From: Fistulifera solaris
Taxonomy: Eukaryota > Bacillariophyta > Bacillariophyceae > Naviculales > Stauroneidaceae
Direction: 5' to 3'
NCBI GenBank assembly: GCA_030295235.1
Contig: AP026138.1
Span: forward strand, 1 to 64,000
Length of the DNA: 64,000 bases
Of this stretch, positions 5,868 through 64,000 are shown piece after piece; position 1 is the first letter of the stretch; the number at the start of each line of letters is the position of its first letter. The position numbers were made by a program, and so were the translations under genes. Below the pieces are notes generated by a model. That model was not told the origin of the DNA. It ran no database searches and saw only the letters and a list, made by a program, of their open reading frames with translations.

Positions 5868-6022
5868 ACTGTTGATCCAATACATAGTATGAACGTTTGT
5901 CAAAGACAAAAAAAAGTATTACTGTAATGGGGGGAAATATCAAAATTTATAAAAATTCAAATTAAAAGGTTCCCCGAAAATACATCAAAATAGAAGTTCA
6001 CTATGTGGTCGCCTGAGTCCTT

Positions 6023-16595: not shown

Positions 16596-17247
16596 TGCGT
16601 ATTCTAAATATGAAGTAACATGGTGGAGTGCAGATTGTAGCTTTAGGAAATAAATCAATACGGAGTACCAGTACTTAATAGCGAGTTTATACCAACCAAC
16701 CGATGTGGACGATAAACGCAGCGAGAGTTTCTGTTCAGATTTTCTGTGAACTTGAAACCATCACTTGCCCAGATTATCCGGATTTTCCGAGTACATGAAA
16801 ACATCATTAACCCAGAATTTCTGGTAATTGTATTTCCAGATTTTTGTGTACTCGAAAACATCACATAGACCCAGATTATCCGGGCATGAGAAAATACACG
16901 TAAAGCAGATTTTCTGAGTACCTGAAAACACCAAACACCCCAATATGTTTGTGCAAGTGAAAAAAACTATAAACCCCCAGAATTCTCTCGAGTAGACCCA
17001 AAGTTAGTAGACGTCAGTTATACGTAATCAAGCCACCTTTATTCAGCTTTAAAAAAGGAATTTCCACGTCGGGAATCGAAAGAATAGGGAAACTTAATGA
17101 GTCCCGCTTGATAGAAACCAGTATAAACCGGCCAAACCTCGTCGTCACGCTTCCTGCTTGAACACCAAATACTAATCATCAATCATCAATCATTATCAAT
17201 GTCAAAGTATTTGGCAATACACCCGACGATGAGAGCGTAATACGACG
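16596..17247. other. Divergent intergenic region with palindrome-core array
   Basis: This 650-bp region lies between the minus-strand ankyrin gene and the plus-strand PPC-like gene, and its middle is filled by the repeat array at 16731-16995. A TACGGAGTA 9-mer is at 16659. Past the array there is a CATCAATCATCAATCATTATC stretch near 17177. Confidence 0.6.
16731..16995. repeat. Degenerate palindrome array 1 (CCAGATT/CCAGAATTTCTGG cores)
   Basis: Cores occur at about 16736 (CAGATTTTCTG), 16769 (CCCAGATTATCCGG), 16811 (CCCAGAATTTCTGG), 16836 (CCAGATTTTT), 16870 (CCCAGATTATCCGGG), 16905 (CAGATTTTCTGAG) and 16976 (CCAGAATTCTC). Between cores a GAGTACNTGAAAACATCA-like linker recurs about four times. 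The arms are imperfect, so this looks like an older or more worn relative of the arrays at 43.7 and 51.0 kb. Confidence 0.7.
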
Positions 17248-30450: not shown

Positions 30451-30809
30451 TTTGGAATAAAAAGACGAAAAAGTAAATAAGAAGGGAACAATTAAACAAT
30501 CAAACGAGGAACAATTATAGTGTTTTGAAATTCATACATGCCGTAGTCGAGGCTCAGTTCATCTGTTCATCTCTTATATTCAACCTGATTTTGAGTGAGG
30601 GCTTACCAGCTTGATTCATGCGACAATCTTATCGCCAGCACATACGGGCACACCTCAGGAATAGACGCGAAATACACTAGATTGAGGACCAAGTAAGCTT
30701 GTTTGAACGATGATATTCACTCTGAGTGCTATTTTTATTTATTTTACTCTTCTAATTAATACGACGAACAATAACACAGACACGACGATATCACATAAGC
30801 TTTCTTCGT
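30451..30809. other. Convergent 3' intergenic region, nothing seen
   Basis: About 360 bp between converging genes. AT-rich stretches near 30730-30760 are probably 3' processing signals. No repeat or RNA is visible. Confidence 0.5.
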
Positions 30810-32949
30810 TTACGCATTAGCGTTTTCCACAGCTTTCACTTCCTTATTGGCGTCAATTTTACCATGTTTCGACGCTCGAACTTCCATCAGCTCATCCACA
30901 TCCTCTTTTCTGGGTCCGCTCATGTCGTACGCCGAACCGCGGTGACTCGAAATGTCCAGACCGACCTCTTCTTCCAAGGGGTCGACGCGGAACATACCAG
31001 CAGCGTTTAAAAGCATGAAAAAAGGGGTTGTGACACAACTGACCCATCCAATAATCCAAAAGATACAACAGATCTGTACCAACAAAAGATGACCGTCAAA
31101 ACCACCCTCCGAGTAAAACAAACCAGGATTGGCTGAGTTGTAACCGGCAAGGTCCATGAGTTCCGGCTTGGCAAACAAGCCGGCGGCGATGAGGCCCCAC
31201 ATGCCGTTGCCCAAATGCACGGGAATGCCGTCCACGGAATCATCAACCTTCAAAGCAACAAGTAGTTTCGACCAGGCAATGTAAACCCATCCTCCGACAA
31301 TTCCAATGATAATGGCAGCCCAGGGAGTAACACAAGCAGTTCCAGCAGTGACAGCCACAAGACCACCAAGACCTCCATTCATGGCCATGGTGAGGTCGTA
31401 ACTGGTTTCTCCAGTCACCATGGATTCCAAAATTGAATCGGTAAACAAGGCAGACACACAAGCGGATGCACCGGCTAAAGTCGTCGTCACGGCACTTAGG
31501 GAAGCAACGGCTGCCGAGTCCTCGTTTGCAATTGCGAGAGCCGACCCGGAATTGAATCCGTACCCTGGTGGAAGCAGCCAAGGTCAATGAATGAAAGGTC
31601 AGCGTTGGCTATTTGAGTAGCGCATGAATTCGACATTTGGTTCGCCATCAGCGGTACTTACATCCAAACCACAAAATCAATGTACCTAACACCTGAAGAG
31701 CCACACTGTGGGGCTGGAAGGTGACAGGTGTCTCCAAGGGGTTACCATCTTCGTCGTAGAAACGTCCCTTACGCGGTCCGAGAATAACAGCAGCAATCAA
31801 TGCCGTGAGACCACCCGTCATATGGACGACACCAGATCCCGCAAAATCGATGCATCCCACATCGCGAAAGTAACCGTCGTTATTGAAAGCCGACAGAAAG
31901 CCGTTGGAGCTCCACACGGAGTGTGCTACGACAGGGTACACAAAACCAGTCAAGAAGATCGAGTAGCACAGATACGCAGACATCTTGCATCGTTCGGCGA
32001 CAGTACCAGCGACGATCGTGGCGCAAGTGGCGGCGAAAGCAAACTGAAAGAAGAAACTAGACCAAGCGTTGAAGTCACGGAGTCCAAAGTAACTGTTCCC
32101 AATAAAGGTCGAGCCAATGTGGTCGGCTCCGCCGTACGCAAATCCGTAACCGACAGTGTAGAACCCAATTGATCCGGCACAAATGTCCAGAATGTTTTGA
32201 AGCATAATGTTTTTGACGTTCTTGGCGCGAATGCATCCGGCGCAGAGCATAGCGAAGCCCGCTTGCATCACAAAGACGAGCGATCCCTGTGGTTGCAGTG
32301 GTATGAAGAAGAAATGCGAGGTTGCAAGAATTATGTGTTCATTTCAAGAAGTGGTTTTGCATTTAATAAGAAGAAAAACCAAATTTTTGTAGAAAGGAGA
32401 TGCAAAAAGTGAGAGGCGCTGCTTTAATCGGAAGTTCCGATCAAAATTTCAGTATAGACGGGTGAAGTAGAAGGGGTGTCACCATCTACTTTCTGTATGA
32501 GACAACAAATCTTCACGAAATCGCAAAAAAAAAAGCATCGGCAACCATCGACGACGACATTGTTGCCTCATTATGAGCCGAAACATGAAAGAGAAACCGC
32601 CACATAAACAAAAGCGGAACAGAAGAGGGTGATGGCACGGGAAAGGCGGTGCGAAAGCGATTCGATGCGATAGGTAGCCCTTCCCAAGTGTCAAGAAAAA
32701 ATCGCATCAAGAGAGTAACAAATTCGGAACCGGCAAGGTTAATCTTCGTCTCAATCGACTTACAGAGGAACGAAACATCACAAAGCGACTCATTAGGGCG
32801 CATCACAGCGTAGCCTGACGACTTACCGCATAGATGAGATAAAAGGTATCCAAACCGGTGGTGAGGCCCATCGTAATGTCGTAAACATTACAAATTTGCG
32901 TCGCAAATTCTCCGTCTCGGGCGGAGCAGTAGGTTTCAATATCACTCAT
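30810..32949 (-). CDS. Ammonium transporter, Amt family (copy C)
   Basis: Start ATG at 32949 (MSDIETYCSARDGEF). Exon 1 is exactly 41 codons and is followed by a 540-bp intron (32287-32826), very long for this locus. A second intron (31565-31661, 97 bp) sits in the Trp codon of WYGFN as in the other copies. Exons total 1503 bp, 500 residues. Motifs are VFVMQAGFAMLCAG, DFAGSGVVHMTGG, IPVHLGNGMWG and TMAMNGGLGGLVAVTAG. It differs clearly from copies A and B in the N-terminus and in IRAKNVKNIML versus VRKKNVQNTML. It forms a tandem pair with copy D upstream. The long first intron is a candidate site for regulatory sequence. Confidence 0.95.
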
Positions 32950-33371
32950 TTTGAGGAATAAATTGCCAAGCAATAGTTTGACGATCAACAAGACCAATAA
33001 TAATGTTGAAGAAGTGAAAAATGAAAACGAAGTGGTTGTCATCCGCCACAAAAAATGTTTGGATTCGGGTTCGCGCGGTCACGCGCAAGGTACATTTAGC
33101 ATCATACAAAATAGCCACTCGATAAGATACAACGATTGAACTTTCGTCTGAGGTGTTTCAACTTCTTGCACCCTAAACGGCAACTAAAACTATGCACAGC
33201 CATTAAGAGCTAGAATGAAGTTTCTATATCAACGATAGAAAATGTCATGAACACAAACACTGAAATTGATAAAAGCCGTAAATTGATAAAACGCGCGTGA
33301 ATAACGACGGTTTCCAAAACGAACAAAAGAAACAAATAGCATCAGCCCATCCGAGAGGGTGATTCCCCAGT
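32950..33371. other. Spacer between ammonium transporters C and D
   Basis: Only 422 bp lie between the stop of copy D and the start of copy C, so the copy C promoter must be here or in the 540-bp first intron. I see no repeat or known element. Confidence 0.5.
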
Positions 33372-35468
33372 TTAGGCATCAGCGTCTTCCGCAGCCTGGG
33401 CAACTTCCTTGGGAACTTCGACCTTGCCGTGTTTGGAGGCGCGAACTTCCATGAGCTCATCGACATCTTCTTTCTTGGGACCGGTCAAATCATAAGCGGC
33501 ACCGCGGTGGTGCGAGATATCCAAACCGACTTCCTCCTCCAAGGCATCCACGCGGAACATACCAGCAGCATTCAACACCATGAAGAATGGTGTCATGGTA
33601 AAGGCGACCCATCCAAAGACCCAGCAAACAGAGCAGATTTGTACCAACAAGAGTTGACCGTCAAAACCACCCTCCGAGTAGAACAGACCAGGGTTGGCCG
33701 AGTTGTATCCGGCCAAATCCATAAGCTCGGGCTTGGCAAATAAGCCCGTGGCAATAACTCCCCACATGCCGTTGGCAAAATGCACAGGGACAGCATCGAC
33801 AGCGTCATCAATCTTCAAGGCGATCAAAGTCTTGGACATGGCAATGTACGCCCAGCCCCCGACGGCACCAATGAGGATCGCAGCCCAGGGCGTGATGACA
33901 GAACATCCGGCAGTGACGGCCACAAGACCACCAAGTGCACCGTTCATGGCCATGGTTAGGTCGTAGCTGGTTTCACCCGAAGCCATGCCTTCCAAAATGG
34001 AATCCGTAAACATGGCAGAAATGCAACCGGCAGCGGCACCCATGGTGGTAGTGACGGTGCACAAAGCAGCAACTTGAGCAGATCCGGCGTTAGCAATCAC
34101 AAGAGCAGAACCGGGGTTGAATCCGTACCCTAAATAAGATCAAGAGAGAAAATTCATAGTGAGGTACGAGTGGTGGCGAAATCAACACCTTTCGAGTTCA
34201 ATCCATGCAACTTACAGCCGACCCAAAGGATGAAGGTACCCAAAATCTGCAGCGCCACACTGTGGGGCTGGAAGGTGACGGGTGTTTCCAGTGGGTTACC
34301 ATCTTCGTCATAGAAGCGTCCCTTACGGGGTCCGAGCACAATCGCCGCAATGAGAGCGGTGACACCACCCGTCATGTGCACGACACCGGATCCGGCAAAG
34401 TCGATGACACCGATATCGCGGAACAAGCTTTCGTTGTTAAAAGCGGAAAGGAAACCATTCGAGCTCCACATCGAGTGCACGACGACGGGATATACAAAGC
34501 CGGTCAAGAAGATAGAGTAGCACAAGTAAGCCGCCATCTTGCATCGTTCGGCAACCGTACCGGCGACGATCGTGGCGGCAGTGGCCGCGAACGCAAATTG
34601 GAAGAAGAAACCAATCCAGGAATCGAATTCACGAAGACCAAAGTAGCTGTCACCAATAAAGGTGCTGCCAATGCGGTCGGATCCACCGTAGGCAAAACCG
34701 TATCCGACCGTGTAGAAACCAATGGCTCCACCACAGGCATCCAAGAGGTTCTTGAGCATGATATTCTTGACATTCTTGGCACGCACGGAACCAGCGCAAA
34801 GCATGGCGAAACCGGCTTGCATAAAGAACACGAGGGCTCCCTGTTGTGGTAAAGTTCCATTGAGAGACCACCGTTAAAACGCGTAATGGAAGATCGCGCA
34901 TTCGAGGAGAGGACGGAAGAGAGCGAAAGAATAACAGTAGAGTAAAAGAAAGAGAGAAAGATTGTGAGGCGATGTTATGAAAAGCAATGAAGGGAAGGCT
35001 TCTTCGACCGACAAACTGCAACGACCGACAAGAGACGACGAGCTTGTCTCCTTCAGAAACGAGTTGCAACACAAGCTGCATCTGACGACGGAAATTGTAT
35101 CGCTTCTGTCGCCCTATAACTTCAGTAGGAGGCTTCAGAGCGAGTCAATTGCATGCCGATGCAGCGGGACGGCTAGGAGCGATGCTGCCGTTCAACGACG
35201 ACCGAGGAGGAGTCTTCTTTTGCTTGCTATCGGAAGACAATCTTTGCAGGGCGTCTCTTCGTCTCAAACCCGCCGCACGAGGCAACATAGATCACAAAAA
35301 CACCAGCAATCGTGTCAAAACAGATGAGATCCGATACGAACTTACCGCAAATAGGAGAAAGAAAGTATCAACACCGGTGACAATGTCATTCGTAATATCG
35401 TAGACTCCGCAAATGTGAACGGCGACGTCTCCTTCCGGAGCGGCGCAATAAGCTTCAAAGTCCGCCAT
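33372..35468 (-). CDS. Ammonium transporter, Amt family (copy D)
   Basis: Start ATG at 35468 (MADFEAYCAAPEGDV). Exon 1 is again exactly 41 codons, then a 505-bp intron (34841-35345); the second intron is 34130-34215 (86 bp) in the WYGFN Trp codon. Exons total 1506 bp, 501 residues. Motifs are VFFMQAGFAMLCAG, DFAGSGVVHMTGG, VPVHFANGMWG and TMAMNGALGGLVAVTAG. It shares with copy C the exon-intron layout, the NSANPGLFYSEGGFDG loop and the C-terminal tail with VDELMEVRASKHGK, so the two arose by tandem duplication. Both frames are intact. Confidence 0.95.
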
Positions 35469-41388: not shown

Positions 41389-43446
41389 CTACATCTTCAT
41401 TTGCGCCACTCCCACTGCCAATCGCGCTGTCTTGGTTTGCGGCGCCACGGCCACTGCGGATCGAATACGGTCCATGTCCAAGGGCCGTCCTGTCTGGGAA
41501 AGAGACGAAAGAGAAGGCTGCAAGTCCACATCTGCCAAGACTTGTGTTCGTACCAACCATGATTCCATCCAGGGAGCATCTCCCATCGCCGCCAACAAGG
41601 GTGCGAACAACGAAGAAAAAACCAGCGGCGGTAAATCAAACAAGGCTTCCGCACCCCTGGTCACGAGACCAAATTCGCCGACAAAGAAGAGCACTTCGAA
41701 AGCAACTGCTCGAAACGCTTTGCGGGCTCGTTTGGGTACCTTCCAACGATCCGCAGTTTGTTTCAGCGACTGAATCGACATGGATAAAGTTCTATCCTGA
41801 ATTTCAATCGAGTCTTGATACCCCGCCACGTCGATTGCAATGATAGCTGCCAATCGCTCTTGCACTAGCGCCCGGAGAGCAAACGACGGTTTTTGAATCA
41901 CCATGAGAGTATCAGCCCCCGAAGGATCCGATGCATTCGCTTTGACAAACTCAGAGGTAGCCAGAGTAACGTTACCAGCACCATCATCCGATTGAGCCAA
42001 GTCCGCATGGACTGCTTGCAATACCTGTCGCATGGTGGTCATGGACGAAGTAGCCTCCTGTGTGGTTGTACTACTGGCCGTCGAGGCGATAGAAGCATCG
42101 TCAGAAGGCGTTGTTGTTTCGACGGAAAACGACGACAGCGGTTGCTGTTCAACGGTTTGCAAAATCCGTTCGCGACGATGTTTGGCCGAACCTAACGTCC
42201 CAAACAGTCGTCGCACTGCATGTCGCCGCTTCCTGCGTTGTTGTTGTCGTGATTTCTCGTGACGAGGAATATTTTCAAAGCCATCGCCATCCTGACTTCG
42301 AGTGCTCTTTCTACTGACTCCCTCCATTTCACCACCTGACGACTCGGGGTCCGTTTCGTCATCATCGTCGTCGTCGTTCAACTCGCTGCCGTTTGTATCA
42401 TTCGGATCAGCACTATCATGATGACGGGATTCTACTCCACTTTCGTCCCACTGCCGTTTCCGTTGCAATATTTGTGCTTTGCGCAATTGCTGTTCAATGC
42501 GCAAAATATTCGCATCCGACAATCGAATATAAAAGGCTGCCACATTCGTCAAATACAGCGACATGAATCCGACACTGAAGGGCAACCAAATGACACAGAA
42601 CCAAATACTCGCAGATTGTGTCGGATAATAATCCCCAAATCCGACGGTCGTTAATGAAACAACACTGAAATACAAGGCCTCCACAATCGTCCATCCTTCC
42701 AAAAACCCTACGACCAATGCACCACAACCAATCAAACCAACAAACGGAAACAATACCGACAATCCTCGTCCTACTTCATCTTCTTTAAAGAAGGTTTGCA
42801 ATTGATCCATGATTTGAAAGAATCGATCCATCGTATGCGTCGGAACATGCAAGAAATCTCCCAATTGCGTAACCGATTGTCGTGTCATGGTCGTCCGACG
42901 ATGATGTTGCGCCAGGGGCGACGTGAAAGGTTGTTCGCGTTCCGATTGCGCCCGACTCGCTTCGAGTGCGATGCATTGATAGACTTGTGCGACAAGAATG
43001 GTCAATGTCGCAATCCCCATGAGAATAAAGAATATCGTGTACAATTGAAAGGCTGGTGTATCCGGACTGTGCAAATGTCCGTATCCGACGGTTGTCATCG
43101 CGTAGACACTAAACAGCAAGGCATCCTTCGTATCCCAGTCTTCGGTTTGTTGCACAAAAAAGATAACACTGATGGTCATGAAAACGGTCATGAACGTAAC
43201 GGCACAACAAGCGGATTGTCGAACGGATTGATAACGAGCGTGATAGGCGACGTCTCGTTCTTCCAATGCCCATTCGTACTCTTGATCTAGTTGTTGTGTT
43301 AATTGTGTATCGACAATACGTCGTGTAGGTAGAGGAGAAGAGATGATCGAAGGACTTTCTGCATGAGGAGGATCCTTCGGAGACGATTGAGGAGAATCCC
43401 TGGAGGATTTCTCTGTGCGCGACAATTCGACAATCCCGCTTGTCAT
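41389..43446 (-). CDS. Two-pore-domain potassium channel
   Basis: Intact 685-residue frame from ATG at 43446. Two K+ selectivity filters are seen, TTVGYGHLHS (about residue 118) and TTVGFGDYYP (about 266), each with flanking membrane helices: CAVTFMTVFMTISVIFFV, FQLYTIFFILMGIATLTILV, FPFVGLIGCGALVVGFLEGW and FCVIWLPFSVGFMSLYLTNV. The TM-P-TM-TM-P-TM layout is that of TPK/KCO channels of plant vacuoles. The long cytosolic C-terminus (residues 310-685) has a Ser/Thr- and Asp-rich linker and ends in a helical region, with no EF-hand visible. It probably carries background K+ current. It is divergent with the UTP15 gene across the palindrome array at 43.7-44.2 kb. Confidence 0.93.
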   Translation of the reverse strand: MTSGIVELSRTEKSSRDSPQSSPKDPPHAESPSIISSPLPTRRIVDTQLTQQLDQEYEWALEERDVAYHARYQSVRQSACCAVTFMTVFMTISVIFFVQQTEDWDTKDALLFSVYAMTTVGYGHLHSPDTPAFQLYTIFFILMGIATLTILVAQVYQCIALEASRAQSEREQPFTSPLAQHHRRTTMTRQSVTQLGDFLHVPTHTMDRFFQIMDQLQTFFKEDEVGRGLSVLFPFVGLIGCGALVVGFLEGWTIVEALYFSVVSLTTVGFGDYYPTQSASIWFCVIWLPFSVGFMSLYLTNVAAFYIRLSDANILRIEQQLRKAQILQRKRQWDESGVESRHHDSADPNDTNGSELNDDDDDDETDPESSGGEMEGVSRKSTRSQDGDGFENIPRHEKSRQQQRRKRRHAVRRLFGTLGSAKHRRERILQTVEQQPLSSFSVETTTPSDDASIASTASSTTTQEATSSMTTMRQVLQAVHADLAQSDDGAGNVTLATSEFVKANASDPSGADTLMVIQKPSFALRALVQERLAAIIAIDVAGYQDSIEIQDRTLSMSIQSLKQTADRWKVPKRARKAFRAVAFEVLFFVGEFGLVTRGAEALFDLPPLVFSSLFAPLLAAMGDAPWMESWLVRTQVLADVDLQPSLSSLSQTGRPLDMDRIRSAVAVAPQTKTARLAVGVAQMKM

Positions 43447-44415
43447 TCTTCTTCTCTTACAAGAAATAACAAGAGGTTGTTTTTAACAAAGAGAAGAGAC
43501 GAGATGTATCACTAAAGTGGAACTAAAAAAGGGGGGCAACAATGATCTATTTTTTCGCTCGTTGCGTCGCGTTGGTAAATTTGTGTTTACAAGCACGACA
43601 CGATCGCGAGAGACGTTGGGGATTGCGTGCGGTGAGAGAAACAAAACCCCTCGGTATGAGAAATCACACAGAATTTCCGTGTGACTGACTCAAAATTATT
43701 TGGTCCAGATTTTCTGGACCCAACAACAAAATCACTCAGAATTTCTGAGTGATTCAGAAGTTTTCGGTCCAGATTTTCAGGACCAAAGAACAACAATATC
43801 ATACAGAATTTCCGTAGGACTCAAAAATTCATCGCCCAGATTTTCTGGACCAAACAAGAACAACATCTCATAGCATTTCCATGCATCTCAAAATTATTTG
43901 GTCCAGATTTTCTAAAAACAAAAAAAATAACAACATCACACAGAATTTCCATGTATCTCGAAATTATTTGGTCCAGATTTTCTGAAACAAATAATTACAA
44001 CATCACACAGAATTTCCGTGTATCTCGAAATTGTTTGGTCCAGATTTTCTGGACCAAACAATAACAGCTATACTCAGAATATCCGTGTGTTTCAAAATTC
44101 ATGGTCCAGATTTTCTGGACCAAACAATAAAACCTCATACAGAATTTCGTGTATTTGGTCCAGATTTTCTGGACCAAATAATAACAACATCACACAGAAT
44201 TTCCGTTATGAACTTCGGGACATACAATACCAACGCTAAACTGTCGGTCGGTCAGACCACCACCATCACCACGAAAAGATGAAAGCAAACACTCTTTCAC
44301 ATTCTTTTGTTCCAAGGATCCTCTCTTTGTTATCGTTCCTTTCCTTCGAAACCATCCTAATTATTATTACCTCTTCCAGTCTCTCTCTTCAATAGAATAT
44401 CGACTTGAAGGCATC
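43447..44415. other. Divergent promoter region between K+ channel and UTP15
   Basis: About 970 bp shared upstream by the two divergent genes. More than half is the palindrome array at 43665-44215, leaving 220 bp on the channel side and 200 bp on the UTP15 side for ordinary promoter sequence. The UTP15-side leader is pyrimidine-rich. Confidence 0.7.
43665..44215. repeat. Palindrome array 2, two alternating palindromes per 66-bp unit
   Basis: Eight copies of GGTCCAGATTTTCTGGACC or decayed forms start near 43702, 43766, 43834, 43900, 43970, 44037, 44103 and 44157. Between them is a second palindrome, CACACAGAATTTCCGTGTG, with copies near 43668, 43732, 43801, 43869, 43938, 44005, 44070, 44137 and 44192. 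The two alternate every 31-34 bp, about three helical turns. One copy reads CACTCAGAATTTCTGAGTG, with both arms changed together. Linkers read CAAAATTATTT and ACAATAACAACAT. Confidence 0.92.
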
Positions 44416-46236
44416 ATGACGACTACGGCTACTTTAACGACAACGACAACCAATACCAGTTCTACGACAACACCCTTTCAATCCTCCCAGGATTTGCGGA
44501 CACTCATCACCAGCAAGCGATCGCTGTTACCGCCCTCCGAAGACTATCATCCTCGGGAAGAACGCTACTGGAACAACAGTCAAACGCATTATCAGCCATT
44601 GCAACACACGGTAACACTCGGAATTCAACAATTGGCCTTGTCGCCGCATCGCACTCTGGCGGCCACGGGAGGACCCCGGATTTCCTTTTGGACGTCGCCC
44701 CTCGACAAGTCGTTGCATCACACGCAACAGCGTTATACTTCAGCACAAATCAAAGCGAAACAGATTTCGACATCGGGTCAAGTGACCACAGCCGTCGCGT
44801 TTCGTCACGATGGGCAATTAATGGCAGTTGGGAACCTCCAAGGACAAGTGCAAATCATTCAATGTGCAACACGGGCAGTCTTGACGACGTGGTCGTGTTC
44901 GACTTTGCCGATTCGGGCGGTCGTTTGGCAAGACGATCAAACGGTGTGGGTCGGTGGAGATGATGCGCGTTTGTCGAAATGGTCTTTGCAATCGACGAAA
45001 CAGACACCGATCACCTTTTCGGGACACGGCGATGGTATCAACTGCATTCGGTTGCAAGACGAATATGTTGTCACGGCGAGTGCGGATCATACTGTTCGTT
45101 TGTGGATGAAATCACCAGAGGCGAATGATGAGGTACAAAGTAATGATGTTGATAACAAAGAAGCCGTCGCGGTGTGGAGACACGCCGGACCGGTGCAAGA
45201 TATGGTGTGGGTACCCGGTTCCGTCCAAGACACGAATGCGAAAAGTAGTGCGTGCTGCATTACTGCCTCGGGTACCGAATTGACGGTATGGAGTCCCAAT
45301 CACGTCCAAGCGTTGCAACAAGTGCCGACACGACATGTCAAGACCATTACTTCATTGTGTTACATACTCCGACGTCGTCGCAAGACGAATGCGAGTAGCG
45401 GTAACAAAAAGGATGATGAAGAAGACGACTTACAGCACTGTGTGTTTACCGCATCCTTGGACGGCGCATTGCGATTGCATGAATGGAATCCGCAGACCCG
45501 ACAGCTCGTTTCATTAATTCGATTGTCACTTCCTTCGCAGCAGCCCGAAACAAGTACGCCTAGTAACATGCAACACGCAATTACCGCGTTGACGGTGTTC
45601 TCGCATCGTGGATGTATTGTCTTGGCGTGTGGTTTCAGTCACGGCCAAGTGCTGTTGCGAACGACGGCTCCACCACCGACGATCATGAAACGACGTGTTC
45701 AGGAACCACCCGCGGGGACCTATGCGTACTTTATGCGAGGCCCACGTGTGCCGTTGACAACGACGACCGAAGACCTCGATACCACTGTGGTGGCTGCCAC
45801 CGGGAATAAAAAACGAAAGTACAAGTCGTACGATTTGTGTTTGAAACAATTTAGGTATGCGGACGCCTTGGACGAGGCCTTGGCGACCCGTAATGCACAA
45901 ACTGTATTGAATGTACTGGAGGCGTTGGGGCAGCGCCCGAATGGATTGGATACGGCCTTATCAAATGCATCGACGCTGGAGCCTCTACTGAGTTTCTGTT
46001 TGTCGTTTCTCCGCAAGCAGCATACCCAGCATCAACATGCGACAACCTGTGTGCTGGGTGTCTTGAACGAATGCTGGCGTCGACGAGCAAATAACGAAGG
46101 AGATGAGTTGTGGTGGAAGATTCGGCAAGCTGTGCAACAGGAAGTGCAAACGCAAACATGTTTGTTGCGGACGTTGGGACAAATTGATGGATTGCTGGGG
46201 GCTCGTTCTTTGGAAGGCAATCAAACTGATGATTAG
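44416..46236 (+). CDS. UTP15: UTP15-like WD40 protein of the small-subunit processome
   Basis: Intact 606-residue frame. UTP15 acts in the nucleolus as part of the t-UTP subcomplex that binds nascent pre-rRNA and supports 18S rRNA processing. After a Thr-rich start, the N-terminal region has several WD40 repeats, seen as VTTAVAFRHDGQLMAVGNLQ, IRAVVWQDDQTVWVGGDD, GINCIRLQDEYVVTASADHT followed by VRLW, and ITSLCYILRR with a lysine/acid-rich insert. The C-terminal region, SYDLCLKQFRYADALDEAL with VLNVLEALGQRPNGLDTAL, matches the UTP15 C-terminal helical domain (adjacent 'yadALDxxL' and 'LxxRxGLxxAL' patterns). The K-K-R-K just before it may be a nuclear signal. Confidence 0.85.
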   Translation: MTTTATLTTTTTNTSSTTTPFQSSQDLRTLITSKRSLLPPSEDYHPREERYWNNSQTHYQPLQHTVTLGIQQLALSPHRTLAATGGPRISFWTSPLDKSLHHTQQRYTSAQIKAKQISTSGQVTTAVAFRHDGQLMAVGNLQGQVQIIQCATRAVLTTWSCSTLPIRAVVWQDDQTVWVGGDDARLSKWSLQSTKQTPITFSGHGDGINCIRLQDEYVVTASADHTVRLWMKSPEANDEVQSNDVDNKEAVAVWRHAGPVQDMVWVPGSVQDTNAKSSACCITASGTELTVWSPNHVQALQQVPTRHVKTITSLCYILRRRRKTNASSGNKKDDEEDDLQHCVFTASLDGALRLHEWNPQTRQLVSLIRLSLPSQQPETSTPSNMQHAITALTVFSHRGCIVLACGFSHGQVLLRTTAPPPTIMKRRVQEPPAGTYAYFMRGPRVPLTTTTEDLDTTVVAATGNKKRKYKSYDLCLKQFRYADALDEALATRNAQTVLNVLEALGQRPNGLDTALSNASTLEPLLSFCLSFLRKQHTQHQHATTCVLGVLNECWRRRANNEGDELWWKIRQAVQQEVQTQTCLLRTLGQIDGLLGARSLEGNQTDD

Positions 46237-46363
46237 TTGAAATATGTCGTGGCATAGAAAGTTAACTTATACTCCATTACAAGGTACAATTTTGTTAACG
46301 GTAGCATTTCGTGCAAAAGTTATGAACATTATGATAAATTGTTTGTTTGTGCTCGCGGCATAG

Positions 46364-48319
46364 TTACAACTGTGAATCAATAGACTTTTCACGTGTTGTA
46401 GACAAACTCAAACGTCGAGTCGTTGGTTTCCACCATCGATTCTTGGAAGATTGTGTTGTCGTACCAGACGGCGAAGGGCCCATAGTGACAACTTCTCGTT
46501 CAGATAAATCGCGACCCAAAGGAGCCACGAGGGACGAGGCAGCGGACAAGGAAGAAACAGTAGAACCAGCCGTTGAAACCGTTCGCAAAGTAGATGCAGT
46601 GCTCGTCATCGACCATCGTCTGGAACGATGCAGCGATGCCTTGCGTTGCAACGGCGAAGTCTGATTAGAGTCTGCGTGCGATGATTTCCAATGAGTGTAC
46701 AACATGTGATTCAATGAACCACGTCGGGGCAACTTCGAATCACTCCTTGTTTTGGACCAAATGTCTTTCACATCATCATCGATCGACGGCTGAGAGTGGT
46801 TACTTAACGACAATCGTTTCCAAGCGCGTCGGAGTACGTTCGGTTTCGTTGTAGAAGAATCTGGTACTTCACAGCAACTCTCATTCTCGAATGTACTCGA
46901 CGTGACATCTCGCTTTTCGACTTCGTCTTGATAGTACTTCTTGTATTCTTCTTCGTCGTTATGGCTTTCGTCCACGTCGATGCTAAAGTCCTCTTCGTGT
47001 TTCTCAGAATCTAACGGTTCCTCTTTGATGATGTCTACCTCCGAGCTTGAGTCCGACGATTCATTCAACATTTCTTCAGTAGACTCGTCTTCAATTTCTT
47101 CGAAATCAGAGTCGGACGACGCGAACGATTCATTTCTCAGCATCCTTTCTACGCTCGACTCGGATGACGATGCAAAAGATGCGTTGGTTGTAATCTCTCC
47201 GTCCAAACTACTCGAATTGGACGACGCGAAAGAATTTTTTCGCTGAAAAATGTCTTCTTCTCTTTCTCCCAAACCAAAATCAAATGCCGCAGCTCGTATT
47301 CTAGCTTGTTCTTCCGCATACGATTCATAACTACTCGTGCGGTGTGTTCGTTTTTGCTGTTGTTGTTGTTGTTGTGACAATGAGTTCTTCGCAGTATTCT
47401 TAGGGCTGCTGGAATCTCCGTGCAAACTAGACCGCCGAACTGGCATGGTAAGAACCTGCCGAAAAGCTTCAAAGCCACTTCGACGCTTGAATGAACTAGC
47501 TTCCGAAGGAGGAGAAGAGGATAACGTAGAATGTAGCTCACTCTTTTCTAGTTGTTGTTCATCTTCTTGTTCAAAACTGGAGTTTCGCTCCGGTTTCGAA
47601 ATGGATTTCGCGGAACGGATCGAGGTTTCATCTTCAAAATAAGACTGACAGCTGCTATTGCGTTGAAAGGAAGATTTCAGAGAAGATCTTCGAACGGGCA
47701 TGCGTAGTGCAGTGCTCACTGAGTGAGAAGGAAAGGAGGATGTGTGACTCTGAATTTTACCCGTCGCGGAAGTGCTTCTCTTTCTCTGTGCGGGTTGAAG
47801 CATACCCGTTGAAAATGTACAGGGAGCAACAAAGGGGCGGCGCAAGGGCATTTTCAATTCACTTTGCGGAGTTGATTGATTTGTTTCAAGAATATCTATC
47901 GGTGCTATGTAATCTTTGATCGATTCAGCTTTAACGGAAGACCGCCGTATCGGCTTATTCGGAGAAGAAGATTGTTCGGATCCTAAAGATCCTAAAGGAG
48001 ATAAAGGTGACGGGGAAGGTGCTGCGGATAAGGATGCTAATGATGATTGTTGCATAGGATGCACAATTCGTTGTTTGGGGATTGCAGGTATAGGAGAATC
48101 TCTCGATATCACAGGAGGCGTAGCTGTCGACCAGCGGTTCGGCAAAGTTATCCCGCGACGTTGCGAACTCCTTTTCCTTCTTAATTTACTTATTCGCTGC
48201 AACGGCACCATTTGTTGCCGCTCAGAAACAGAAAAAGGTGGCGTTTTCGCGTTGTCGACATGAATGACAACGTCTCCCTCATACCGTGCTATTAACGAAT
48301 GCACGACTGCGGGAAGCAT
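46364..48319 (-). CDS. Serine-rich protein with repeated RRxS motifs
   Basis: The first ATG, 48319, gives 651 residues (MLPAVVHSLIARYEGD). The same frame is open for 24 codons upstream without an ATG and encodes a strongly hydrophobic run (LLCVFSLFVVILIV) that would complete a membrane anchor, so a first exon or non-ATG start may be missing. The rest is low-complexity Ser/Glu-rich sequence. Basophilic kinase sites recur: PIRRSSVK, PVRRSSLK, PVRRSSLH, PRRGSLN, QRKASLH, SRRWSMT and TRRLSLS. Acidic stretches (DSDFEEIEDESTEEM) alternate with these. It is probably a membrane-tethered scaffold regulated by PKA-like or other AGC kinases; that is inference from the motifs. Confidence 0.65.
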   Translation of the reverse strand: MLPAVVHSLIARYEGDVVIHVDNAKTPPFSVSERQQMVPLQRISKLRRKRSSQRRGITLPNRWSTATPPVISRDSPIPAIPKQRIVHPMQQSSLASLSAAPSPSPLSPLGSLGSEQSSSPNKPIRRSSVKAESIKDYIAPIDILETNQSTPQSELKMPLRRPFVAPCTFSTGMLQPAQRKRSTSATGKIQSHTSSFPSHSVSTALRMPVRRSSLKSSFQRNSSCQSYFEDETSIRSAKSISKPERNSSFEQEDEQQLEKSELHSTLSSSPPSEASSFKRRSGFEAFRQVLTMPVRRSSLHGDSSSPKNTAKNSLSQQQQQQQKRTHRTSSYESYAEEQARIRAAAFDFGLGEREEDIFQRKNSFASSNSSSLDGEITTNASFASSSESSVERMLRNESFASSDSDFEEIEDESTEEMLNESSDSSSEVDIIKEEPLDSEKHEEDFSIDVDESHNDEEEYKKYYQDEVEKRDVTSSTFENESCCEVPDSSTTKPNVLRRAWKRLSLSNHSQPSIDDDVKDIWSKTRSDSKLPRRGSLNHMLYTHWKSSHADSNQTSPLQRKASLHRSRRWSMTSTASTLRTVSTAGSTVSSLSAASSLVAPLGRDLSEREVVTMGPSPSGTTTQSSKNRWWKPTTRRLSLSTTREKSIDSQL

Positions 48320-49457
48320 TACAATGAGAATTACAACAAAGAGAGAGAAAACACACAAGAGAGGCTTGCAGCAAGAGAACTCGAGCAACACCTCTTTCGA
48401 TCAATCGTCCTTTGCTATCGTGCTTCTCTTCGCTGGTTGCCGCACCTACATTTTTTCGTTGGAAGGGCCAAGGATCTCATTCACGTCCGTGCGTCCGTGC
48501 CGACGTAACGTCTCGATCTTCTATGTACGGAGTATACTATATGAGCCACTGCCATCGCGTGGAGCGTTAAATTATTTAACTCGACCAAGATACAAATACT
48601 CCGAATTGTACTAGCAGGCTCGCAATAGAGAACGATTGAATCTTCTACCGGTACTCAGAGATGTTTTGGAAAACATTTCCGAACTCCGAACAGCGAATAG
48701 AACAATAGAACGAGGCACAAGGCATTCAACATTCAACATACAAGCGCAACTCGCGGTTCCGTGGCTCGCGCGTCCGTAATTCCGTTTTCAAAATTTTCTC
48801 ACTTGAAGAAGAGTATGAAGCGGAGTGTTCTAAACGTTCTAAGTAAGGATTGACGTCGACTAAGTAAATGTCCAACGGATCGAAAGAATTGTGTTTCATG
48901 TTTCATCGGAATTATTTGAACAACCCCCATTTAAACGTTTAACCCTGTTGGGGTTCGCCGAATTTTGAGTTTTGAGTTTAAGAGACGTCGAAGTGAATTG
49001 CAGTTAAACGTCAACTGTGACACTCACGTTTCCCTTTCAATAGCCCCAGGCCTTCGAAAAACGGAGTAATGGAATGCAGCAAACTCTATGACCTGGATAC
49101 TATCATGGACCACCAACAATTGCCCACTCCGGTTTGCCGGTTTGCCTCTCGTCTCTCATCTCTCATCTTCCGTTTACTTAGTCGAAATGTCAGCGTTATC
49201 ACGAATTAAGCAGCTCAAACAAATAGGCAGCTCAAACAAATAGTGGTCTTGCTAGTTGATACCCGATAGCTCAGAGCCTCCTCAGAAGTACCAGTAATAA
49301 CGCTCGTCTTAGCAGGGTATAATCCAGAAGTAAATTATTATTCTTTTGTTCATGATAGTGATGCCCTACTTTCATTGATAGATACATTGCGAAACAAGTG
49401 AGGCTCAAGTAGCGGTGGCGGCGGTAGCTGTGTTGTAAAGTGATAATCCTGCTAATG
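48320..49457. other. Intergenic region, nothing notable
   Basis: About 1.1 kb upstream of the Ser-rich gene and downstream of the next minus-strand gene. A TACGGAGTA 9-mer lies near 48525. The first 100 bp may include a missing first exon of the Ser-rich protein. No RNA gene is seen. Confidence 0.5.
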
Positions 49458-50219
49458 TCATGCAGCTTCTGCCGCTCGTCGTCCCATGTCCAATATGATG
49501 GAGGAATTGATGATAAGCTCTTCGATGATCGCTCTGGGAAAGCCGTGTTTGGGCTGCAAAACACCCATTGTTAAAATATCCACCAAGCGTTCCGCGGTAT
49601 CGTGCTCTGCAGCAATATCGCAAAGCTCGTAGTGACAGTTGGCCTTGTTGTTGAGCACCAGTGCTTCGACCATGAGTGCAGCCGGACTTGGACGTGCATC
49701 GGAATCCGCCAATAACTGCAGAGTAAACATGTAAAGGTTCAAAGCTTGTTGAATCAACTTTGAGTGACCTTTGATTCCTCGTTTGTGAAAGCATAGTGCC
49801 AAATTGAAGAGAACGATCGAGCTGTAAAAGGAAAGCTCCCTTTCGCCGAACAATACTCGTTCTTGAAGAAGAAACGGCACGCTGTACATGAATGTCGATC
49901 CGTCCCAATTTCCAAAGCTCAACTTTTCCGGAAAGGCGACGGCCTCGAGCAAAGTGAATCCAAGAGACGATTCCTCATCAAACTTGCTTCGGTTGTGACT
50001 CACGACGGATAGTTGAGCCGCCATTTGCTTCAAGACGACGAGCGATTCTTGGAAATACTTGGCCGCTGTTCGGCAGTCGCCGTCAATGAAAAGTTGAACA
50101 CCGGCGTTGTTCAATGAAAGATACGATTGGTCCACTGGGATGACCATGTTGTTGTGTTTGATGCAGTTGTGAGCAGGAGGCGTTTGTGTCTTTTGTGTGT
50201 TTTTGTTTGCATGTTTCAT
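49458..50219 (-). CDS. Helical-repeat (TPR-like) protein, unknown
   Basis: The first ATG is at 50219 (MKHANKNTQKTQT); a second at 50147 (MVIPVDQSYLSLNNAG) may be the true start, since the residues between look like leader sequence. About 253 or 229 residues. Paired helices have TPR-like spacing: SLNNAGVQLFIDGDCRTAAKYF, then SIVLFNLALCFHKRGIKGHS, then LVLNNKANCHYELCDIAAEHD, each with the small/large residue pattern of a tetratricopeptide. Such proteins act as binding scaffolds. I do not know its partner. It is divergent with the membrane protein gene at 51.8 kb across palindrome array 3. Confidence 0.6.
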   Translation of the reverse strand: MKHANKNTQKTQTPPAHNCIKHNNMVIPVDQSYLSLNNAGVQLFIDGDCRTAAKYFQESLVVLKQMAAQLSVVSHNRSKFDEESSLGFTLLEAVAFPEKLSFGNWDGSTFMYSVPFLLQERVLFGERELSFYSSIVLFNLALCFHKRGIKGHSKLIQQALNLYMFTLQLLADSDARPSPAALMVEALVLNNKANCHYELCDIAAEHDTAERLVDILTMGVLQPKHGFPRAIIEELIINSSIILDMGRRAAEAA

Positions 50220-51777
50220 TTGTGTTTTGGCTTTTGACAACACTTTGGGCAAGTGGAATTGCCCACTTGATGATGAAGAAGCACGAAGTGGGAGGCTAGA
50301 CTAGCTGCAAGCTACCTGGTACTGTATTTTCTTATTTTCGTTTCCGTAGTCCCTCGTCCAAAGTCTGTTGCCCAAAAATCCCAAAAAGATCAAAACAGAC
50401 AGAAGCCAAGTGTCTGCGCACTACTTTCGAGGCTACACTCTCCAAGGGACATTGAAGTTTGAAGTCCTTCGATCCTTCGATTTTTCAAATGTTAAGTAAT
50501 TTTCGGAAAGGGCATTATGAACTAGACACGATATGTTAAGAGTTTTTGACAAGGGTCATTCTATGGCTTTTAATGTAAGCCTCTTTGTTCTTTTAGGCAA
50601 ACGTCATCGACGTGCGAGATTTAACTTGAAGTTGAAGGAAAACACATAAAGATATTTTGTTGACAATGAACAATGAAGAAATACGACGAATAGGAAATAA
50701 TATTATAACGTACTCCGTAGTTTAAACAGTACCACGACTGCAGTTCAGTCACGAACTAGAACATTTTCCTAGCCATGGTGCTTTGCTAAGATGTGTTTCT
50801 TTTGCTTGTCTTGTAACCTCCAACTACGGATATCAAGCTGCATGCTGCCTAGCAAATAATGCCTCGACTAACTGCCGCGATATTATTGCGGATCGTGCTT
50901 TGGATTATTGACTATACCCCCGAAATGTTGTCTTGTCTTATTAACAATGCCACGGCTACAAGGTCGAAAAAACTGGTCCAGAATTTCTGGACCACCACAG
51001 GGTTTCTGTATGATGAGAAATAATAACGTTTCCAGAATTTTTGAAACGTGCAATTCTTTCGTTATAATCCAAACCACACTTTCCAGAATTTCTGGAACGC
51101 GCACTTTCTGTCGTTATGATTCAAAATACAGTTTTCTGAATTTCTGGAACCTGCACAGCATTTCGTTGGGCTCGAAAAAACTGGTCCAGAATTTCTGGAC
51201 CACCACAGAATTATTGTATGAACTGAAATAAAGCATCCAGAATTTCTGGATCGTGCAATTCTTTCGTTATGATCCAAAACACATTTTCCAGAATTTCTGG
51301 AACACGTACTTTCTGTCGTTATGATCACAAACACCGTGTCCAGAATTTTCCACGAACTACAAGTACAGGTACTAGCTAGAACGATGGGATGTTTGCTGTT
51401 GTCATAAAAGACGCATCGGTACTGTTTTCTCCCGCGTGAAATGACTCAACAAGCGTGCCGCACGTCGGTTGGTTGTTGGTTCTCGTCGTTTCCGAAAACA
51501 TCAAACACACGCCACGGCAGAAAAAAGGCTTCGATTGCGTTGCATTTTCGTCTTTCGTTCGTTTGGATGATAGTTCATGACAAGAAAGACCTCACAGATA
51601 AAGTCGATTCGAAATACATTCACATATTACCAAGAAATCGATATATTAAGTGAGCGAGACAGCACCCGAAAGGCTTGTCAACGAACAACTCACTCCTTTT
51701 CTCCCATTTGTCACGCCCTTTCTCAATCGAGAACACAACCAAGACTCTTCTATACGCGCTCATAAACAATAACGAAC
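50220..51777. other. Divergent intergenic region with palindrome array 3
   Basis: A 1.56-kb region between divergent genes. It holds a TACTCCGTA 9-mer at 50711, a GACTGCAGTTCAGTC palindrome at 50736-50750 and the array at 50974-51354. Otherwise ordinary AT-rich sequence. Confidence 0.65.
50974..51354. repeat. Palindrome array 3, eight copies at about 52-bp spacing
   Basis: Copies start near 50974, 51028, 51081, 51133, 51182, 51235, 51286 and 51337, spaced 49-54 bp, close to five helical turns. The core is CCAGAATTTCTGG. Arms differ but stay paired: GGTCC/GGACC at 50974 and 51182, TTCC/GGAA at 51081 and 51286, ATCC/GGAT at 51235. Copies 1-4 and 5-8 are themselves a duplicated block of about 208 bp, with shared linkers such as GTGCAATTCTTTCGTTAT and CTTTCTGTCGTTATGAT. 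Confidence 0.92.
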
Positions 51778-53252
51778 ATGCCTCGAAGGAACCGCGCATT
51801 CACAATTCGCACAACATTCTTTTTATTACTACTATCGGTCGCACAATGTTATCAAATACCGAAACCTTTGGCGGCGTCTTTACAACCGGCTTTATTCGAA
51901 GCACCCCCACGACGTTTGCAACAACCCGTCCCCATCATTCCGGCACGCGCGCAACAAGACATTCAAATTATGACAGAAAATATGAGAGCCATGACAAGGG
52001 TCGAAATGGTGGCCATGACATCGACGGGTGCGGCCTTGTTATTGGGAATCATTGCACTGTTGGCGAGTTCGATGGAAACACCGTCCGTCGAACAAGCGCC
52101 GATTCAGGCGCTCGAAGAAGTTGTGGCGAATGTCGTCGATGCGGCCGTGCCCTTGACTGCCACCGATGTCGTGTCGGTGTCGATGGGAGAAGGGTTGGCG
52201 GGTTTGTTGAGTGCGGGCTTTACCTATTCCTTGAGTCAATTGCGGACACTCGCAATGCAACAAATGTCAACCACCAATCGAAAACGCGCGACCACATTGA
52301 CGACGCCTCCTTCCCAAGTGGCACCCACGTTTTCGGATGCCGTAGCCGATGGTGACTTTTTATTGACACGAGCCGCCGCGACGCCCTTCTTGGCGGCGGC
52401 GGGTGTGTCTCCGGTATTGGCCGCTACATTGAGTGTAGCCTTTGCCATTGTACCGTCGGAATCCATTCGACTGAAAGCACGAGCTCGGCAACGGCGATTG
52501 GAAGAAGATCGATTGTTACAGAAACTGTTGCAACAACAGTTAGAAGAAGAAAAAACAGAATGCATCCGTCCTGCAAAAAGTTCAAAGTGTCATTCAAATT
52601 CGAGACCCATCACAGCAACAACAAATCGTCGATCCCGAAAGTCTGAAACCCATTGTTTCGGAAAAGTCAGCGAAAGGTTTGAACTTTGTCGAAATCTTTT
52701 GTGATATTACACGATGGCTGGAATATTCGGTTCTCATGAATGATTACAAGGGCATGTTTCCCTTTCTCGACCCCGCGATGGAAAGTGCCGTCTTTGGGGC
52801 ACTTGCCAGTCTCTCCGCACTCCTCTATGCCGATGTCTTTAATGCCTACTTTGGCTTGGGAGGATCCGAAGTCCGACGAGCACTGGAACAGCGGACGGTG
52901 GCGGAATGGTCTTCGGCCTATTTAACGCGTATGTTTTACGGAGCCGTCCTGTTTGGGGTGTACGAAGGAGCGCAAGGCCCGGTGACAGAGCTGGTCGAAT
53001 CCTTCTTGTCGGGTGGTGTCGATGGTTGCGTAGGATCCGATTTTTGTAAGTAGAGTCCCGTATCGTGCAGTGGTATAAGGATCTTATCCGGATGCTGACA
53101 ACCTTTCGTCTTTCTTAGATCAACAATGTGTGGATACGTACGTCACCGAAAATCCTACCGGCTCAACACTGGAAACGCAGGCGCACGACGTAATGGTCAA
53201 CATGGCCAGCTTTGTGGACCGTTTAATGAGTCAATTTAGCAACGGTTCATGA
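51778..53252 (+). CDS. Secretory or plastid membrane protein, unknown
   Basis: Start ATG at 51778 (MPRRNRAFTIRTTFFLLLLSVAQC) gives a signal peptide. An intron at 53046-53118 (73 bp) splits a Tyr codon near the end; the last exon ends DRLMSQFSNGS. The A6 run at 52550-52555 looks one base too long; with five the frame reads EEKQNASVLQKVQSVIQIRD and continues through 466 residues. Hydrophobic segments include GAALLLGIIALLASS, SVFGALASLSALLYA (approximate) and MFYGAVLFGVYEG, with an Ala-rich stretch (TRAAATPFLAAAGVSPVLAATL) between. A charged coiled-coil-like helix (RARQRRLEEDRLLQKLLQQQ) lies in the middle. I do not recognise the family; several helices suggest an integral membrane protein. Confidence 0.65.
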
Positions 53253-63127: not shown

Positions 63128-64000
63128 AATGTTATCGAGAACAATCAAAGTAAAAAGAAAGAAATAAAGCAAGCAAGTTATGATAATAACGAATAAGCAA
63201 AGAATTTGTCCTATCTTCGTGACTTTGTGACATATCAGTTCAGGAATTCCGTCTGACTCAAAATACAGTAAGAAAAGCCGAATTTTACTATAGTCCACAG
63301 TGTTGGCCGTATGTCGCCACGACTGCAAGTCAGTCATGAGTCTAATTTCTCTCGAGCAAAACTTCTGCCTACAGTTCGTTCATTCGTCAAAACGTCTTGA
63401 GCCACACTTATCGTTGTTGCGAGGAGATAGTCGTTAGCAGCATTTGCATTACATTCTTTTTATTTAACGTCGAAAAGCCAGCGGAACGCTGTCTTCCGTA
63501 TTTACTATGGACCAAAGTGTTGGTTTTACGAGACCACGATTGCATTTCAGTCATGAGTCAAATTTCTCTCGAGCAAAACTTCTGCCTACAGTTCGTTCAT
63601 TCGTCAAAACGTCTTGAGCCTCGATCGTAGTTACTGCAATGAAATAGTCGTTAGCAGCATTTGCATTACATTCTTTTTATTTTACGTCGAAAAGCCAGCG
63701 GAACGCTGTCTTCCGTATTTACTATCGACCAAAGTGTTGGTTTTACGAGACCACGATTGCGTTTCTGTCATGAGTCATGAATCGATACTATGGTGTTTAT
63801 CCCTTGACCGAGCCAGATAGTCATTTCATCAACATTTTTCTTCTTTTAGCAATATTTACTATTAAGATGATTGACCTGTTCTACAACATTCAATGTTACA
63901 GCCAACACTTTTTCCGCCTCCTGAAAGGCGCTCTAGCTTAACAACCCATCGCAGACAACACATTATGCTATAGTCCGTCCCTCCGTCGACCCGGTTCTCG
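63128..64000. other. Intergenic region with a 217-bp tandem repeat
   Basis: The last 870 bp of the window. Most is the tandem repeat at 63288-63775. Beyond it is AT-rich unique sequence with no gene seen before the window ends. Confidence 0.6.
63288..63775. repeat. 217-bp tandem repeat containing the GACTG element
   Basis: Two full direct copies begin AATTTCTCTCGAGCAAAACT at 63344 and 63561. They share CTTCTGCCTACAGTTCGTTC, ATAGTCGTTAGCAGCATTTG, GTCGAAAAGCCAGCGGAACG, ACCAAAGTGTTGGTTTTACG and a closing GTCATGAGTC. A partial copy precedes (from 63288, with ACTATAGTCCACAGTG and GACTGCAAGTCAGTC). The most divergent part is a 30-bp block near 63405-63430 and 63620-63645. Confidence 0.9.

Follow-up and report, generated by a model that had tools for sequence, protein, structure and literature searches.

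Introduction

Minisatellite-type repeats can carry a conserved protein-binding box, as is the case for the CENP-B boxes in alpha satellite. The palindrome arrays of the oil-producing, allodiploid diatom Fistulifera solaris described here are alike in that a short motif is conserved within diverging tandem units; they differ in being short, dispersed and promoter-linked instead of forming centromeric blocks. Bacterial REP/BIME elements, which are GTAG- and CGTC-tagged palindromes, share with these arrays their short, high-copy, intergenic and often grouped nature, and roles in supercoiling or as RNA have been hypothesised for them; in the parts of PMC3733652 drawn on here, they are described as lying mainly in tandem and convergent gaps, downstream of ORFs, whereas the F. 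solaris arrays are eukaryotic and nuclear, tandem at ~34 bp and situated in divergent gaps. LIMP, in the mitochondrion of the alga Lobosphaera incisa, is likewise a repeated palindrome peculiar to one genome and has a conserved loop; it is present in 19 copies with pentanucleotide-built stems, and a cruciform or an RNA role has been proposed for it (PMC4524435, as far as drawn on here). LIMP is mitochondrial; in contrast, the F. solaris family is nuclear and comprises thousands of core copies, with ~19-bp units in tandem arrays. Being nuclear and promoter-linked also sets it apart from the otherwise similar algal mitochondrial palindrome families, as these are portrayed in the consulted parts of PMC4524435 and PMC5910586.

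In F. solaris itself, homoeolog expression bias was reported for ~61% of pairs, and differences in promoter motifs between homoeologs, the motif being TABASTA, were proposed to bias expression (PMC5935921). This is another, 7-bp motif, alongside which no palindrome or array is mentioned in the parts of that source used here. Palindromic minisatellites are known as a kind; what appears to be new, judged by the open-access literature searched, is a nuclear family of them in F. solaris that is linked to divergent promoters.

The array between the ion-channel gene and UTP15

The window, i.e. the whole 64,000-nucleotide stretch that was analysed, opens with an AACCCT telomere-type repeat (1-311). 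Several minus-strand ORFs in this subtelomeric region (6000-10300 and 30800-34900) resemble, by eye, ammonium transporters (putative), and at 63317-63777 a 217-bp unit is repeated in tandem (2.1 copies, 92% matches). The features of the locus under study are the following:

41389-43446, minus strand: flanking ion-channel gene (Pfam Ion_trans_2)
43663-44206, plus strand: palindromic tandem array, period ~67 bp, 17 sites at ~33-34 bp
43665-43683, plus strand: CACAC-type site, 7/8 arm pairs
43702-43720, plus strand: GGTCC-type site, 8/8 arm pairs
43733-43751, plus strand: CACAC-type site, swapped arm pair CACTC/GAGTG, 8/8 arm pairs
43766-43784, plus strand: GGTCC-type site, 7/8 arm pairs
43800-43818, plus strand: CACAC-type site, 6/8 arm pairs
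43833-43851, plus strand: GGTCC-type site, 6/8 arm pairs
43867-43885, plus strand: CACAC-type site, degenerate core, 4/8 arm pairs, by eye
43900-43918, plus strand: GGTCC-type site, 3' arm broken, 4/8 arm pairs
43937-43955, plus strand: CACAC-type site, 5/8 arm pairs
43970-43988, plus strand: GGTCC-type site, 6/8 arm pairs
44004-44022, plus strand: CACAC-type site, 6/8 arm pairs
44037-44055, plus strand: GGTCC-type site, 8/8 arm pairs
44071-44089, plus strand: CACAC-type site, degenerate core, 5/8 arm pairs, by eye
44103-44121, plus strand: GGTCC-type site, 8/8 arm pairs
44136-44154, plus strand: CACAC-type site, 2/8 arm pairs
44157-44175, plus strand: GGTCC-type site, 8/8 arm pairs
44191-44209, plus strand: CACAC-type site, array edge, 4/8 arm pairs
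44416-46236, plus strand: flanking UTP15 gene (Pfam UTP15_C)

Tandem Repeats Finder delimits the array at 43663-44206 (period 67, 8.3 copies, 76% matches); with head-to-tail units in the range of ~10-100 bp, it is a minisatellite. Within each ~67-bp unit, a GGTCC-armed palindrome is joined by a CACAC-armed one, both of them odd-centred, and the resulting 17 sites (eight and nine, respectively) alternate with their centres ~33-34 bp apart; all but one of the 16 steps measure 31-37 bp, the exception being 21 bp. The sites centred at 43876 and 44080, whose core is degenerate, were located by eye. The first-pass annotation had described two different palindromes in alternation. The alternation is real, but the CACAC-type palindrome is mostly decayed, because all eight arm positions (offsets 2-9) pair in only one of nine sites and seven of eight in one further site. 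Neither are the two types unrelated, as the core AGAWTTTC is common to most sites of both. All eight positions pair in four of the eight GGTCC-type sites; altogether, 12 of the 17 sites are imperfect at offsets 2-9, and an A.C mismatch is retained in most copies of the CACAC-type class. The copy in which both arms were said to have changed together (CACTC/GAGTG) is indeed present at 43733-43751 (CACTCAGAATTTCTGAGTG): relative to the consensus of its neighbours, a single base pair is exchanged in both arms, a compensated change, and an A.C mismatch has been restored to a pair.

The array takes up 544 of the 969 bp (56%) between the two start codons and thus, as had been noted, more than half of this divergent promoter. 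Folding of each strand, computed for the 544-nt array, bears out the proposed potential for hairpins, with z-scores against shuffles of -11.9 for DNA and of -14.1 (plus strand) and -13.4 (minus strand) for RNA. The core CCAGAWTTTCTGG occurs 11 times in the window, five times inside this array, whereas none of 100 dinucleotide-shuffled versions of the window contains it.

A dispersed palindromic minisatellite family

The search was extended to the F. solaris assembly (51.7 Mb, 61 contigs), in which the core CCAGAWTTTCTGG has 3,673 copies, as opposed to 3 for the pattern read backwards, and the exact 19-mer of the first palindrome, GGTCCAGATTTTCTGGACC, has 247 copies versus 0 for the reversed control. 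A DNA search of the genome with the array itself gave matches, 66 of them reported, on many contigs. Within the F. solaris nuclear genome, the array is a degenerate representative of a dispersed family of palindromic minisatellites. A unique, designed lattice is ruled out by the 3,673 core copies, and the genome-wide spread of the 247 exact copies speaks against anything special to the pair of K+ channel and UTP15.

Array loci were collected via the GGTCC palindrome (among the matches listed) or via similarity to the 43663-44206 array, hence the sample leans to the GGTCC subtype. The only count free of this lean is a profile scan of the 64-kb window: a profile built from other loci detected three multi-site arrays (16734-16918, 43667-44207 and 50977-51301), while the same profile on the reversed window gave 2 single matches and no cluster. 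The two further arrays of the window are:

16734-16918, plus strand: third family array, decayed, in a divergent gap; by eye it extends to ~16990
50977-51348, plus strand: second family array, period 51-52 bp, with GGTCC, TTCC and ATCC arms on the core AGAATTTCT, in a divergent gap

The second array is flanked by ORFs on the minus strand (49458-50219) and on the plus strand (51778-52704), both lacking a Pfam match; flanking the third (16734-16990) are a minus-strand ankyrin-repeat gene and, on the plus strand, a bestrophin-like ORF.

From 38 arrays, ~0.2-1.9 kb in length, 476 units with a GANTTTC core were gathered. Both arms are GGTCC/GGACC in only 188 of them. Where neighbouring units are 28-40 bp apart, a unit of the GGTCC class adjoins one of a different class in 160 of 191 cases; alternation is thus a family-wide rule. 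The steps cluster at 33-35, 52 and 67-71 bp, the commonest being 34, 35 and 33 bp, followed by 68 and 69. These distances do not agree with the spacing of every three helical turns that the first-pass annotation had read into the array: ~34 bp corresponds to 3.2 turns of 10.5 bp, and the 68-69 bp between sites of the same type to ~6.5 turns. A helically phased protein lattice, with steps in whole multiples of 10.5 bp, is likewise at odds with commonest steps of 34 and 35 bp; for the family, the vector strength of the array steps is 0.35 at 10.5 bp and 0.71 at 17.3 bp.

Other identities were considered for the arrays. Heat-shock elements consist of alternating GAA and TTC blocks two bases apart. 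The GAATTTC core places GAA and TTC one base apart, its commonest form GATTTTC has no GAA, and TTCnnGAA is found only in TTCC-armed units, e.g. those of the second array (50977-51348); an array of heat-shock elements was rejected on these grounds. A larger transposon that carries the arrays would leave flanks in common among loci. In an all-against-all comparison of ~36 loci with the cores masked, no enclosing element was seen: flanks matched between homoeologs and, as two minor cases, for L055-L061 and L050-L052, and the remaining matches were leftover array units. A coding origin was also dismissed. The first coding-potential run, which had placed 5 of 38 arrays in coding sequence, was trained on unmasked arrays, and the calls retreated to the flanks after masking.

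Outside the F. solaris genome, the matches comprised a lone one in a viral contig, one on a Neobacillus stretch and five on Tannerella-type MAG stretches. Among these five, a Tannerellaceae MAG contig (L078:2150-2570) has a bacterial array built of 41-42-bp units, with TTCCAGAATTTCTGGAG and variants of the CCGGAATTTCCGG type, whose core is nearly that of the F. solaris palindromes, with symmetric changes; the other four Tannerella-type stretches, which come from the same series of samples, give similar matches. This likeness is likely due to convergence. In the open-access literature searched, the palindrome family is undescribed, and searches of that literature with the core sequences returned only unrelated papers.

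Arrays are concentrated between divergent genes

Coding-potential gene calls with the arrays masked assigned 39 array sites to 28 divergent, 8 tandem and 0 convergent gaps, with 3 unclassifiable. After removal of the homoeologous partners (L036, L058, L059, L072) and of the sites lacking a gene call on one side (L023, L029, L040), 32 distinct sites remained: 25 in divergent, 7 in tandem and 0 in convergent gaps. Compared with the 36% share of divergent gaps in the intergenic length of the window, this is an excess (binomial p 1.6e-6); the length share was taken as the baseline because gaps adjoining a divergent gap cannot be divergent themselves. The trend is the same with stricter gene-call thresholds (24 divergent, 6 tandem, 9 unclassified of 39) and with plain ORF calls (25 divergent, 11 tandem, 1 convergent (L029), 1 unclassified of 38), and the non-array gaps in the same sequences divide into 18 divergent, 20 tandem and 21 convergent ones. 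In the window, scanned with a profile from which its two main arrays had been left out, 3/7 divergent, 0/7 tandem and 0/7 convergent gaps carry arrays. The arrays are thus concentrated between divergent genes, and the placement of bacterial-type REP/BIME elements in tandem or convergent gaps near 3' ends is not what the 25 divergent, 7 tandem and 0 convergent sites display.

The palindromes are conserved, the spacers diverge

At the sequence level, the palindrome is far better conserved across arrays than the spacers. Pairwise comparison of 32 arrays gave a consensus identity of 0.98 at palindrome offsets 4-9, a figure inflated by the admission of its units at <=3/10 arm mismatches, versus 0.56 at spacer offsets 11-17. 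In 237 distinct units taken without arm selection, the information content amounts to 0.89-1.66 bits at offsets 4-6 and to <=0.65 bit at offsets 11-17. The two arms covary above 1000 shuffles at offsets 6-9 (z 8.0, 4.7, 6.4 and 4.3), and the fraction of complementary cells at offsets 4-9 is 0.634, compared to 0.24-0.33 when one arm is slid by 1-2 bases. Once the GGTCC/GGACC-armed units are taken out, clear covariation is left at offset 6 only (z 7.3); offset 8 retains a weak signal (z 2.7), and offsets 7 (z 1.7) and 9 (z -0.4) show none. The consensus of array L041 has a symmetric change, GTTCC/GGAAC. The centre measures 3 nt in 198 of 199 intact GGTCCAGA/TCTGGACC pairs and reads TTT in 160 of these. 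Perfect palindromes number 7.5 per kb inside the arrays, which were chosen by their core, versus 0.08 per kb outside. Since the copies share descent, sequence conservation alone is no proof of binding.

Turnover between the two subgenomes

UTP15 of contig C24 is identical in 605 of 606 residues to a protein named UTP15 of Fistulifera solaris, and the UTP15 of the window is 93% identical to it. The genes on both sides of the array align at 87-91% with the homoeologous region of C24 and with a near-duplicate on C53, and neither the C24 promoter nor its C53 counterpart contains a core site. A conserved function at the promoter of K+ channel and UTP15, as implied by the first-pass annotation, is thereby left unsupported. 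That annotation had named an orthologous region that lacks the array while expression is unchanged as evidence against its proposal; the first half of this, absence of the array, applies to the homoeologous region. In the C24 gap between UTP15 and the channel gene (L045), an unrelated, insert-like stretch is bounded by GGGGATTGGGGATT and its near reverse complement. The near-duplicate (L046, C53:38000-46932) has an interrupted UTP15 frame, and may be either a decaying copy or a duplicate contig of poor quality. The second array of the window (50977-51348) also has no core site in the homoeologous C24 stretch (L047).

In the partner search, 29 loci were entered, 11 gave an anchored homoeolog and 40 of 56 candidates were scored, an array being called absent when there was no CAGANTTTCTG core. 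Of 16 homoeologous pairs, 12 carry the array on one side and 4 on both, the one-sided share being inflated because sites were chosen on the array-bearing side; conversely, three of the four two-sided pairs were found because both sides carry an array, which leaves 1/13 shared and 12/13 one-sided. Arrays come and go between the subgenomes, and no given promoter needs one, because the array is absent from the homoeologous promoter at UTP15 and at 11 other pairs. At two of the four shared sites, 14-mer sharing with the homoeolog is only 0.088 and 0.066, whereas it reaches 0.299 and 0.200 with other arrays. Neither a target-site duplication nor a sharp empty site was recognised in the homoeologous gaps that were read, the edges being too diverged to align.

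The assembly has homoeologous contig pairs, in keeping with allodiploidy. Odd and even contigs were read as subgenomes on the basis of nine pairs (C1-C2, C3-C4, C5-C6, C9-C10, C13-C14, C15-C16, C17-C18, C23-C24 and C32-C33). The subtype TGGTCCAGATTTTCTGGACCACG has expanded almost only in one subgenome: within C1-C24, 53 copies are on odd contigs and 1 on an even one, and 10 more are on C27 and C32 (64 in total). Exact copies of the 19-mer GGTCCAGATTTTCTGGACC number 43 on C1, 14 on C2, whose two sites are shared with C1, 24 on C3 and 0 on C4, 8 on C5 and 0 on C6. The TTCC-armed form is spread more evenly, its 19 copies comprising 12 odd and 4 even ones in C1-C24 and 3 beyond, which suggests an older layer common to both subgenomes and a younger layer in one progenitor, the order of the two being inferred. 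As the family is commoner in one parental genome and is missing at the matching place of the other, it may be a young kind of promoter repeat.

How the arrays may work

The reading placed first, tentatively and at somewhat less than an even chance, is that of a promoter minisatellite family whose palindromes are kept as dyad-symmetric sites of a putative DNA-binding protein. Arrays would grow by tandem duplication and unequal exchange in open promoter DNA; each palindrome would be retained as a dyad-symmetric site for a sequence-specific, probably dimeric, putative DNA-binding protein; and the array as a whole would act as a putative binding-site cluster, modulating one of the flanking genes or both. 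What ranks such sites first is that conservation falls on a specific sequence whose centre is fixed, and not on pairing alone. To our knowledge, no protein family is recognised for the palindrome motif. A minisatellite that favours its own spread is ranked next because turnover is fast and no paired promoter keeps its array reliably; as an account of the whole family, it is a serious rival, though clearly the less probable of the two. It would have no promoter function: hairpins in nucleosome-poor DNA would drive duplication and hairpin-templated correction, and arrays with intact palindromes would spread. This would fit the high turnover between subgenomes, with 12 of 16 pairs one-sided, the two shared sites that resemble arrays elsewhere more than their homoeolog, the excess of perfect palindromes in the core-chosen arrays and the strong hairpin folding; active maintenance of inverted repeats has been proposed for nematodes (PMC1803023, in the part drawn on here). 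Templated correction should, however, perfect all palindromes, yet the CACAC-type class keeps its A.C mismatch in most copies and only 188 of 476 units have both arms GGTCC/GGACC; it also leaves the recurrence of GGTCC across arrays with unrelated spacers unexplained. Rather doubtful is a broader proposal, in which a self-amplifying chain of nuclear palindromes, a divergent-promoter counterpart of the bacterial extragenic palindromes, spread in one progenitor after the split, would have provided one homoeolog of many gene pairs with a new shared cis-element and would contribute to the known homoeolog expression bias.

That the arrays serve as torsional buffers is unlikely. Extrusion of cruciforms would absorb negative supercoiling, which is highest between divergent promoters, and keep both promoters open, in line with the preference for divergent gaps and the lack of convergent ones (25 and 0 of 32), the uniform 3-nt centre between 8-bp arms and the low single-strand folding energy. 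Arms of eight base pairs are short for cruciform extrusion, though; moreover, such a structure requires pairing and not the strict sequence CCAGAWTTTCTGG, so that the conservation exceeds what a cruciform demands, and 7 of the 32 sites lie between tandem genes. A cruciform role under supercoiling has been proposed, as a hypothesis, for the palindromes of one green-alga mitochondrion (PMC4524435, in the part consulted). Quite unlikely, in turn, is a REP/BIME- or MITE-like mobile palindromic element, whose units or arrays a transposase would move in trans with a preference for promoters. Wide dispersal, arrays of alternating palindromes, expansion in one subgenome and the lack of a larger element around the arrays in the core-masked search of ~36 loci would agree with mobility; against it stand the diverged homoeologous gaps, in which neither a target-site duplication nor a sharp empty site was recognised, and the predominance of bacterial REPs in tandem and convergent gaps (PMC3733652, in the parts drawn on), the opposite of the F. 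solaris arrays. Least of all would one expect the transcribed array to act as RNA, be it as a processing signal, a source of small RNA or a long hairpin, which is very improbable. RNA folding lies well beyond shuffles on both strands, and the plus strand has an excess of A.C over G.T mismatches (0.74 versus 0.69 in shuffles, sd 0.015), equivalent to G.U pairs on the other strand; this excess is small and mostly a matter of base composition, and the arrays are located upstream of genes and not at 3' ends. A known structured RNA was rejected, as no Rfam match at E <=0.1 was found within 43400-51500.

Implications for F. solaris

The subtype TGGTCCAGATTTTCTGGACCACG, nearly confined to one subgenome, is a marker for assigning contigs to progenitors. 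The allodiploid genome also provides a built-in control, as the same gene pair is present with and without an array in one nucleus. If the arrays act on transcription, the one-sided pairs in published F. solaris RNA-seq data could reveal the effect at once. If they do not, the family is still a naturally occurring system in which to study why promoter DNA acquires palindromic repeats and why the palindromes outlast the spacers.
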